IMG/VR virus record: IMGVR_UViG_3300020465_000009
Location: 1 to 64,000 of that record
Length of the DNA stretch: 64,000 nucleotides
Origin: a virus
Reading direction: 5' to 3' (one strand)
Made by a program: the position numbers and the translations under genes. This document shows positions 7,968 through 12,599 of this stretch, one piece after another. Positions within the stretch are counted from its first letter, which is position 1. Each line of letters starts with the position of its first letter. The notes below the pieces were generated by a model. That model saw only the letters and a program-made list of their open reading frames with translations. It had not been told where the DNA came from and did no database searches.

Positions 7968-7975
7968 TATAAATA
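7968..7975 (+). promoter_or_regulatory. T4-type late promoter for gp26 operon
   Basis: Exact TATAAATA, the octamer recognised by the gp55-type late sigma factor, lies 36 bases before the gp26 start. Initiation would fall near 7981. The preceding bases ATACGCATAT recur just before the promoter of gp6 (22680-22689). Confidence 0.72.
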
Positions 7976-9486: not shown

Positions 9487-9964
9487 GACATGGTTGGATG
9501 AGTTCGTAACCAAACCAAATCCGGTCTTTGGAAACTTGCCACCTTGCCCTTTCGCTAGGAAGGCCATATTGGACAACAAGGTGCATTTCATAGAGATGCC
9601 TCCCATAACAACATATTCAACACTGTATCAGTTCATATGCGAAGCGGACTTCGAAGAGATAGACGTGTTGTGCATGATCATAGAGCCTGACAGGTTGACT
9701 GCAAAAGAGACCGTGGAACTGGCGCATGACCTAAATCAATATTTCATGAGCAAGGACGTGGTTGTGTTGGAGGATCATCCCGACATAGATGAACGTGTCA
9801 AGGACGTGAGATTGAACAACGGTGAGTACATACTGTTCCTTGTGCAAAGTTTGAGCAAGTTGAACAAGTTCAGCAAGATGCTGGAATCAGGCCCCTACTA
9901 TAAGAACTGGAGCAAAAGTTATCTTAAAGATGTGAAAGGTTTTCGACATCCGAAAACAAAGTAA
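9422..9964 (+). CDS. CPxAR-domain protein (stand-alone copy), unknown function
   Basis: About 180 residues. It has a basic Lys/Gln-rich N-terminus (overlapping the previous gene), then LPPCPFARKAI near residue 40, LNNGEYILFLV near 138 and a conserved end GPYYKNWSKSYLKDV. The same landmarks (PVCPYARQA, LNKGEYQLIGL, GYYKNWSEQHYNDI) occur in the N-terminal half of the methyltransferase fusion at 60470-61663, so this is one domain family present twice here. AAAGGA at 9412-9417 favours ATG 9422 over ATG 9419. The 3' end overlaps the opposing gene by 41 bases. Two conserved cysteine/arginine landmarks suggest a functional domain, but its chemistry is unknown. Confidence 0.7.
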   Translation: MIQQKKQTKKNRKKKTPTEKIRTWLDEFVTKPNPVFGNLPPCPFARKAILDNKVHFIEMPPITTYSTLYQFICEADFEEIDVLCMIIEPDRLTAKETVELAHDLNQYFMSKDVVVLEDHPDIDERVKDVRLNNGEYILFLVQSLSKLNKFSKMLESGPYYKNWSKSYLKDVKGFRHPKTK

Positions 9965-10691
9965 GCCTGCTGTCTCTTCTACACAGTTTCTTGTATAATT
10001 TTTTATCGGTGCTCCACTCGGTACCGGTCCACCATTCAAAACCCTTCCATGATGCCTTGTATTCCGAACTCTTCTCGTAGCCACTGCCCAGGTAGTAGTG
10101 TGACACACAGTTCTCCCGTGCCCAAGACAATTCCATGTCCAGTGACAATGCACTTATGGGAATACTGTTGGCGTGGATGACGCTCTCAACTCCCTGCAAC
10201 ATGGTTGGATTTTCTTCCTTCGCCTGTGCTGTGAGTATGTCCTCTTGGTACTTGTAGTATTTCTGTTTGGTGAATCCCACTATGTTGTCCGGACTGTCGA
10301 TGTAAAATATCAGGAACCTGTCTCGGTCATGGTAAAAACGGAACGGATCGTAGTCCGCGCCAAATTTTTTATCCTTCATGTACTGTCTGTATATCTTGGG
10401 CAGTCCCAACAGCGACACCATCTCGTTAGCCTCTATCGTTTTCATGCCCAGCGGTTTGCCATTGTGTTCGAACTTGCGGAACCGCGGTTCGTATTTGCGT
10501 AAATCTATTCTAGTGCTACGTGATTGGTACCACACTTCTTTGTTTTTGTAATCGTGGTCCAGTGCCAACCAACCCTGCTCAACTGCGTCGTCCTCTTCTT
10601 CAGGTTGCACGATAGCCATGGGTCGGCATATTACTAAATCTTGATCTTCCTGTTTGCCCAAAACGTGATCGAATATCAGTTCCATATACAA
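9924..10691 (-). CDS. Arginyl-tRNA-protein transferase-like (GNAT-fold) protein
   Basis: 255 residues. The C-terminal half (from about residue 165) reads GVESVIHANSIPISALSLDM, ELSWARENCVSHYYLGSGYE, SSEYKASWKGFEWWTG. This arrangement resembles the C-terminal acyltransferase domain of arginyl/leucyl-tRNA-protein transferases (SL...E...A...G..YYYLGY.......YKA.+.P). The N-terminal cysteine cluster of eukaryotic-type enzymes is absent. The start is TTG at 10691 or ATG at 10685; neither has a clear ribosome binding site. It is the only gene of its unit and ends tail-to-tail inside the CPxAR gene. Transfer of an amino acid or acyl group is inferred from fold resemblance only. Confidence 0.45.
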   Translation of the reverse strand: MYMELIFDHVLGKQEDQDLVICRPMAIVQPEEEDDAVEQGWLALDHDYKNKEVWYQSRSTRIDLRKYEPRFRKFEHNGKPLGMKTIEANEMVSLLGLPKIYRQYMKDKKFGADYDPFRFYHDRDRFLIFYIDSPDNIVGFTKQKYYKYQEDILTAQAKEENPTMLQGVESVIHANSIPISALSLDMELSWARENCVSHYYLGSGYEKSSEYKASWKGFEWWTGTEWSTDKKLYKKLCRRDSRLTLFSDVENLSHL

Positions 10692-10800
10692 TACTTAAGG
10701 TCAACTCAAAGATGGCTTACAGCCATCTGAAACATCGCTACGCTCGTTTCCTTTTCTTAATTTACGCATCTGTAAAAAAACTAAACGCACAATGCGTACT

Positions 10801-10876
10801 CTTGTAGTAGATGAGCAGTCACAATTCGGCTATTTCTAGCCGAACCGACTTGAACTTGTAGTGAGTTCGCAGTCAC
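10801..10876. repeat. Imperfect direct repeat, two 22-nt units
   Basis: Units at 10801-10822 and 10855-10876 have identical 8-nt flanks (CTTGTAGT and GCAGTCAC) around different 6-nt centres (AGATGA and GAGTTC). They are separated by 32 nt containing the 8-bp hairpin. Confidence 0.7.
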
Positions 10877-11137
10877 CGTACATCGTTGCCGTAGCCGGGC
10901 GGTTGTGCTGTACCCGTTCACTCATTCATCCAACGCGAGTAGATATAACCTTTGTACGATAATTCTATATCTACTTGGGGTTGCTTTTTCCCAGAGCCCC
11001 ATCATTTTTGCATTTGCATCAAGGGATTCACCTGTCGCTTGTTAAGCCGCATTTCCCTGCTCACTTTCGAGATGCTATGTTTTTGCCTATGAATTTCAGT
11101 TTAAGATTGATTTGTGCCTATCGCTGTTATATAGTAC

Positions 11138-11143
11138 TATAAT
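11138..11143 (+). promoter_or_regulatory. Possible -10 element upstream of GIY-YIG gene
   Basis: TATAAT lies 33 bases before the ATG at 11171, inside AT-rich sequence. No good -35 element is present at 16-18 bases; TTGTGC sits 20 bases upstream. Weak candidate for a host-sigma or early promoter. Confidence 0.35.
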
Positions 11144-11170
11144 GATTAGTACTAAAGGATATTTGAGTTG

Positions 11171-11614
11171 ATGTCAATGGAAAATTGGATTTACCAATCT
11201 AAAACAATAGAATCACTACCAGAAGACTGTGTTGGATTTGTTTACCAAATTACAAATACAACTAACGGTAGGATGTATATTGGTAAAAAACTTGCGAAGT
11301 TCAGCAAATCACGTAAACCGTTGAAGGGCAGAGTTAACAAAAGACGTTACAAAATTGAAAGTGATTGGAAGGATTATTACGGTTCCAGTGATGCCTTGCA
11401 CGAAGATATCAATAAACTAGGCAAGGACAAATTCAAAAGAGAGATACTTTATTATTGTAAATCCAAAGCAGAATTATCATACGTAGAAGCAAGGGAGCAG
11501 TTCGCTAGAAAAGTTTTAGAATCGGAAGATTATTACAATGGTCATATCAGGGTTAGGATACATGGCTCTGGTATTATGAGAGAAAAGAAAAGCAAAGGAA
11601 TTTTAAATGATTAA
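11171..11614 (+). CDS. GIY-YIG endonuclease, free-standing (Seg-like)
   Basis: About 147 residues. The N-terminal catalytic module starts VGFVYQITNTTNGRMYIGKK, the GIY-YIG signature in the form VYQI ... YIG. KIESDWKDYYGSSD and a DKFKREILYYCKSKAELSYVEA helix follow, as in Seg-type free-standing homing endonucleases of T4-like phages. A glutamate in YVEAREQFAR near residue 120 is in place to be the metal ligand. The start may be TTG 11168 or ATG 11171; GGATA/TTGAG just upstream offers only a weak ribosome site. It lies right after the hairpin-rich segment and overlaps the next gene by 8 bases. No split gene was found around it, so it is not in an intron. Confidence 0.78.
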   Translation: MSMENWIYQSKTIESLPEDCVGFVYQITNTTNGRMYIGKKLAKFSKSRKPLKGRVNKRRYKIESDWKDYYGSSDALHEDINKLGKDKFKREILYYCKSKAELSYVEAREQFARKVLESEDYYNGHIRVRIHGSGIMREKKSKGILND

Positions 11615-12407: not shown

Positions 12408-12599
12408 TTACGCCGCAGTTTTTGCCGCGTTTTTAGCCTCTTGAATTTCTTTTCTTCTTGCTTTGATCAATTTAGAAAGATTCGCAAGTGCTTTTCTGGC
12501 TCTAGTCGCAGAAGCCTTAACACCTTTCTCTGTGAACTTACCGTTCTCTTCAGAGTAATTTTGAATCTCTGTCATGATCGACTCATGTGTTTGTGACAT
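12408..12599 (-). CDS. Histone H1-like (Hc1 family) DNA-binding protein
   Basis: 63 residues, basic and rich in Ala/Lys. The central part EKGVKASATRARKALANLSK and the tail RRKEIQEAKNAAK match the pattern of bacterial and chlamydial Hc1 histone H1-like proteins (KGNKAA...RARKA...L.K....RK...EAK), here with V in place of N. Such proteins bind and condense DNA non-specifically. AAGGAAGGA precedes the ATG. A sigma70-like promoter and an intrinsic terminator bracket the gene, so it is probably expressed alone and possibly earlier than its late-class neighbours. Function could be in packaging, nucleoid remodelling or host takeover; family membership is judged by motif only. Confidence 0.6.
   Translation of the reverse strand: MSQTHESIMTEIQNYSEENGKFTEKGVKASATRARKALANLSKLIKARRKEIQEAKNAAKTAA

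Follow-up and report, generated by a model that had tools for sequence, protein, structure and literature searches.

Two divergent genes in a viral genome flank an interval that seems to hold no gene of its own, which raises the question of whether the DNA between them encodes a structured RNA and, if so, what that RNA may do. The window examined is a stretch of 64,000 nucleotides from an IMG/VR virus record (IMGVR_UViG_3300020465_000009). The left-hand gene starts at 10685 or 10691 on the minus strand, the GIY-YIG endonuclease gene starts at 11168 on the plus strand, and inspection of the open reading frames found no credible gene within 10692-11167. The first-pass annotation had described this interval as gene-free, higher in G+C than most of the window, and furnished with strong inverted repeats and a duplicated 22-nt unit, all of which is borne out. 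The G+C content is 41.6% versus 36.8% for the 64-kb window. The part assigned below to the RNA reaches 43.4%, a value equally high in 7% of windows of the same length. The repeats have stems of 8, 8, 10 and 8 bp and, together with the duplication, are located as follows.

10710-10717/10721-10728: inverted repeat, 8 bp
10825-10832/10837-10844: inverted repeat, 8 bp
10938-10947/10966-10975: inverted repeat, 10 bp
11132-11139/11147-11154: inverted repeat TAGTACTA, 8 bp
10801-10822 and 10855-10876: the two copies of the 22-nt unit, 77% identical and 54 nt apart

Relatives of the segment were found by several routes. A pattern scan with the duplicated unit yielded one near-identical contig; the other three of the four contigs with the 22-nt repeat pattern (L002-L004) are chance matches in coding sequence. 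With the neighbouring GIY-YIG protein as the query, 80 contigs were retrieved, and nearly all of them contain the segment, as a rule at 75-82% identity and usually directly upstream of the GIY-YIG gene. The first full-length alignment contained a 19-mer common to all copies (GGGCGGTTGTGCTGTACCC on the plus strand; one letter differs in L051), and a search with it returned more than 119 IMG/VR stretches and four MAG contigs. These matches include copies distant from any GIY-YIG gene as well as groups that align little beyond the core. A stem-variant pattern added L212-L214, L217 and L218, and its three remaining matches out of eight (L211, L215 and L216) are due to chance. The RNA core is single-copy in all 15 long records (15/15). 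Its carriers are large tailed phages, mostly T4-like and mostly marine, and some RNA-bearing phage sequences are non-marine. Among the isolate phages of INPHARED, no DNA match was found for four divergent copies. The RNA is also present in MAG contigs L206-L209, assigned to Marinimicrobia, Pacearchaeota, Betaproteobacteria and Pelagibacter, which are probably phage contigs sorted into bacterial or archaeal bins.

Comparison of these copies makes it virtually certain that the segment is a real, conserved and structured non-coding RNA. RNAalifold applied to 66 copies, together with mutual information, gave many compensating helices, and the pairs of highest mutual information are those of canonical helices. 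Alignment A1 consists of 42 divergent rows, minus strand, aligned by MAFFT on sequence and not fitted to structure. Its structure has 76 pairs, including the pseudoknots PK1 and PK2, and is 96.5% paired versus 83.6% in shuffles. Double-changed cells number 408 versus 104 ± 9.5 after shuffling (0/500), controls slid by one to three columns give no more than 62, and 42 pairs have changed on both sides. The first-pass annotation had proposed a structured RNA, to be refuted by a lack of covariation among homologues or by an unnoticed conserved coding frame. Compensatory changes prove to be abundant, and no such frame came to light: when the core is compared with the window copy, 211 of the 280 indels have lengths that are not multiples of three, and the open frames are about as long as in shuffles, which rules out a coding segment.

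The RNA is almost certainly read from the minus strand, as judged from its sequence relatives, because within pairs on that reading the G-U cells outnumber the A-C cells by 199 to 26. A plus-strand RNA is ruled out, since minus-strand G-U pairs would read as A-C on the plus strand. Folding energy alone is a modest signal that favours the wrong strand (z of -3.3 plus and -1.5 minus for the whole interval; -2.3 plus and -1.1 minus for the RNA part). The certainty of structure, comparative as it is, comes from the relatives and not from folding energy. The first-pass annotation had taken the whole 476-nt interval as its unit; the RNA itself covers about 10708-11122, with ends that are inferred. 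Its parts are listed from 5' to 3' after the entry for the whole.

10708-11122, minus strand: structured RNA, supported by homologues in more than 119 viral contigs, covariation on 42 rows and the balance of G-U versus A-C
11016-11075, minus strand: helices P2 (GCAUC/GAUGC) and P3 (AGGGA/UCCCU), compensatory at 6 of 10 pairs and about 95% paired
10976-11001, minus strand: helix P4 (UGGGG/CCCCA) with an inner three-pair helix, from alignment A1
10938-10975, minus strand: helix P5, the 10-bp repeat of the first-pass annotation, compensatory at 11 of 13 pairs, with as many as six pair types
10953-10958, minus strand: loop of P5, serving as the PK1 5' strand (CGUACA), with double changes at 6 of 6 pairs and 99.2% paired
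10931-10934, minus strand: putative PK2 5' strand (GUUG), complementary to its partner and invariant in 42/42 rows
10896-10916, minus strand: core hairpin P6 (CGGGUACAGCACAACCGCCCG), with a covarying stem and a loop CAAC (10902-10905) predicted to pair with GUUG
10888-10895, minus strand: small hairpin P6b (GC-UACG-GC), compensatory at 2 of 2 pairs
10877-10882, minus strand: PK1 3' strand (UGUACG), supported by covariation and by distant groups
10852-10876, minus strand: twin hairpin R1, with loop ACUACA (10857-10862) matched to that of R2
10817-10850, minus strand: helices P8 and P8b (AGUC/GACU; GUUCGGCUA/UAGCCGAAU), P8b being 100% paired with compensatory changes
10799-10822, minus strand: twin hairpin R2, with loop ACUACA (10803-10808), identical to that of R1 in 95/96 distinct copies
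10729-10750, minus strand: 3' hairpin P9, compensatory at 5 of 5 outer pairs
10710-10728, minus strand: 3'-terminal hairpin P10 (AGAUGGC/GCCAUCU), compensatory at 3 of 7 pairs and followed by no U-tract

Not all of these elements are equally secure. P8 is weaker than P8b, at 81% paired, and the hairpin form of R1 and R2 is less secure than the rest, their stems being short and varying. PK1 was recovered in several distant groups outside A1, for example as an 8-bp helix in L105, L212 and L213 and a 9-bp one in L108; elsewhere (e.g. in L111, L100 and L217) it is weak or escapes the automatic test. The combined p-value for the distant groups is only indicative because some rows are related. For PK2, in which GUUG would pair with the CAAC in the core loop, complementarity is the sole evidence, since both strands are invariant. 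Three single-position scans for variants of that core loop found no true variant belonging to the RNA. The P6 stem occurs as CGGG/CCCG or UGGG/CCCA, and in far relatives as GGAGG/CCUCC or AAAGG/CCUUU, and the P6b loop reads UACG, GAAA or GAGA depending on the relative.

The 5' end is placed at about 11122, an inference from a conserved -10-like position and an AGGC motif, and the 3' end is put at about 10710 or 10708 because P10 is the final hairpin with covariation. The window copy lacks an evident terminator at its 3' end, and since no U-tract follows P10, this end may arise by processing. The sequence just upstream of the RNA is a probable promoter.

11120-11167, minus strand: probable RNA promoter region, TTGAC-N17-TATATA or TTGACC-N15-TATAAA in relatives

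A promoter-like score of at least 9 is reached in 98 of 114 relatives versus 33 of 114 shuffled sequences, with positions clustered before the AGGC motif. The window copy has a -10-like TATATA and a degenerate -35, and a consensus promoter scan of the window gave none on the minus strand. Between 11130 and 11160, the window has the TAGTACTA inverted repeat where relatives have the RNA promoter, so the window copy may have a changed promoter. Like the promoter, expression is inferred, there being no transcript data.

The duplicated unit noticed at first pass is more than a repeat: it forms two short hairpins with matched loops, R1 and R2, and is therefore probably functional. The 96 distinct copies, in all but one of which the two 6-nt loops are identical, fall into eight loop types (ACCACA, GCCACA, AGCACA, AGUACA, ACUACA, ACAUGA, ACGUGA and AGAUGA), and distant relatives also repeat a motif (AGAUAGA or GGAUGAU). 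On a tree built without the loops, the loop type has changed at least 13 times, and both loops are alike each time. In terms of mutual information, each variable letter of one loop is most strongly coupled to its counterpart in the other; by the same measure no third column within the RNA pairs with them. Since the letters beside the two units differ (CUC versus UCU), copying of a block of DNA is not an easy explanation. Loops that covary only with each other would imply one shared partner in trans, and we consider it reasonably probable, in the absence of binding data, that both loops bind such a partner. Confidence is low for any particular partner, be it protein, host RNA or a further copy of the phage RNA itself. 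No consistent complement of the loops that might be a phage-encoded antisense target was found in ten phage records, some searched in part, and loop complements of 9-10 nt are absent outside the RNA in several records, again with some searched in part. The loops of group C resemble snoRNA C/D boxes, a likeness that is absent from the main group and was taken as chance.

Together these observations lead us to favour, as a probable though unproven reading, a stand-alone, pseudoknotted phage non-coding RNA of about 415 nt, encoded on the minus strand, whose twin loops grip one partner in trans. A host-type promoter would probably drive the RNA early in infection. Its body, comprising P2-P6, the two pseudoknots and the invariant loop UACAGCACAACCG, may then act as a rigid scaffold that presents the short hairpins R1 and R2 with their common loop sequence. 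The two loops would in turn bind a single partner, either a loop-recognising protein or a host RNA. The action in trans, the nature of the partner and the function are all inferences. In CsrB/RsmZ and in RNAIII of S. aureus, several hairpins carry the same short loop and one partner binds repeatedly. The present RNA differs from these in having exactly two loops, whose sequence shifts between relatives yet remains matched, and it bears no sequence relation to them. Each loop of the main group has the form Y-NNN-A, a pattern that would suit a tRNA anticodon loop (U33-NNN-R37). That this is an undescribed class of phage RNA whose loops co-evolve with a changing partner, and that it might on this basis capture or shield a pair of identical host tRNAs, is a speculation to which we attach very little weight.

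Contact between RNA copies could also keep the loops alike. The best-surviving alternative is a homo-oligomeric ornate RNA, resembling the cages of GOLLD and ROOL, in which the twin loops are contacts between copies. GOLLD and ROOL are large ornate phage RNAs of unknown function that assemble into cages without protein (PMC12286853). They are the closest kind to the RNA described here, which is likewise a large, pseudoknotted and highly conserved phage non-coding RNA with no known function or obvious protein partner; GOLLD includes a marine one. However, the sequences are unrelated, and at about 415 nt, as opposed to about 660 or more than 800 nt, the present RNA is roughly half the length of GOLLD. 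Its twin loops are identical rather than complementary to each other, and pairing of a loop with a receptor would need a third covarying position, of which none was found. Furthermore, GOLLD and ROOL often lie near tRNA islands, whereas 15 of the 16 loci scanned have no tRNA island beside the RNA, L239 being the exception. Oligomerization through the loops thus seems unlikely, without being dismissed.

The first-pass annotation had recognised no known class, and this stands: a search of Rfam 15 with the window and six divergent loci found no match at the gathering threshold and only chance hits at E values up to 10. No tmRNA was found. Identity with GOLLD or ROOL is rejected for lack of a match to their Rfam models, both RNAs being in Rfam (PMC12286853). 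A group I intron carrying a GIY-YIG endonuclease is likewise rejected, as there is no Rfam intron match and the ORFs on either side are intact and point away from each other. Part of 16S rRNA resembles the core, to a degree expected by chance, and the resemblance was discounted. While absent from Rfam 15, the RNA could still be identical to a published marine RNA outside that database (e.g. IMES). IMES and other abundant marine RNAs from metagenome studies are likewise structured, and marine environmental sequences are their only known source. Large RNAs without a known function such as GOLLD, ROOL and OLE are among the open puzzles of bacterial and phage biology; the present RNA would join them as a compact class, strongly supported by covariation, in common uncultivated ocean phages. 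Its matched twin loops offer a concrete and quickly testable handle on function, and the alignment and structure may be used as a model with which to gauge whether the RNA is abundant in marine metatranscriptomes.

The genomic setting bears on whether the RNA acts by itself. In the marine T4-like group it lies between the early block on the gp46 side and the block of baseplate (T4-type, PF12322) and tape measure genes, and this position at the early/late boundary is syntenic although the genes right beside the RNA vary. The divergent late gene follows the RNA in some groups and lies elsewhere in others, and L212 and L214, which are larger phage contigs, have the RNA among unrelated genes. Several groups have a downstream neighbour oriented opposite to the RNA, which therefore is no leader there. 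Since the neighbours change, the GIY-YIG gene may be absent or occur alone and downstream genes may be opposed, the RNA is very likely a unit of its own, neither a leader nor an accessory of the GIY-YIG gene. A cis-acting role in the 5' UTR, as leader or riboswitch for the divergent late gene (9924-10685, minus strand), would suit the window and the main group, where the RNA is directly upstream on the same strand. Yet no downstream gene is constant, the one in other groups being unrelated or opposed to the RNA; a TTAAGTA box lies between RNA and gene, so the gene may have its own promoter; and the RNA, which closes with two hairpins, lacks an evident expression platform. We regard the leader as improbable.

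A function at the level of DNA, such as a replication origin, a packaging site or a recombination site, would be in keeping with the early/late boundary and the nearby gp26-like baseplate gene. T4 has a replication origin in the neighbourhood of the corresponding baseplate gene. Compensated pairs that tolerate G-U on one strand only nevertheless point to selection on RNA, and the exchange of UACG and GNRA-type loops in P6b also speaks against a DNA element, which we find very improbable. Least credible of all is that the RNA belongs to a mobile GIY-YIG element and partners or guides its endonuclease, in the manner of HEARO/IscB. The gene adjoins the RNA in most contigs, but many of those were found through that gene, and loci found by the RNA core have other neighbours, the GIY-YIG gene being 0.6-2.7 kb off, inverted or absent. 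Relatives of the gene are also present in 89-300 kb records that lack the RNA core, and the one in phage Melnitz has a gene, and not the RNA, directly upstream. HEARO and omega RNA are comparable as large structured RNAs beside an endonuclease gene; here the neighbour (11168-11611; Pfam SegE_GIY-YIG, E 9.5e-38) is of the common SegE type and not of the IscB type with HNH/RuvC, it is not obligate, and there is no Rfam match. The endonuclease to which the first-pass annotation had drawn attention is thus an incidental neighbour, each occurring without the other.

Some minor observations concern the surrounding genes. PHROG 447 and several cyanophage records label the GIY-YIG family 'NAD synthetase', apparently an annotation error that has spread. 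The 253-aa product of the gene at 9924-10685 (minus strand) has no relative above threshold in Pfam, PHROG or INPHARED, and its orthologues (27-68% identity) lie beside the RNA in many uncultivated phages. A small histone H1-like protein (Hc1, PF07432, E 3.9e-12) is encoded at 12408-12599 on the minus strand and adjoins a gp46-like gene. Between the divergent tape-measure and baseplate genes, two TATAAATA boxes, the T4 late-promoter sequence, stand back-to-back at 7968 (plus strand) and 8002 (minus strand). A tRNA search of the 64-kb window found none; in a 111-kb phage contig (L239, G012:60001-80000) the RNA lies between two tRNA arrays, with 27 tRNA genes within 20 kb.
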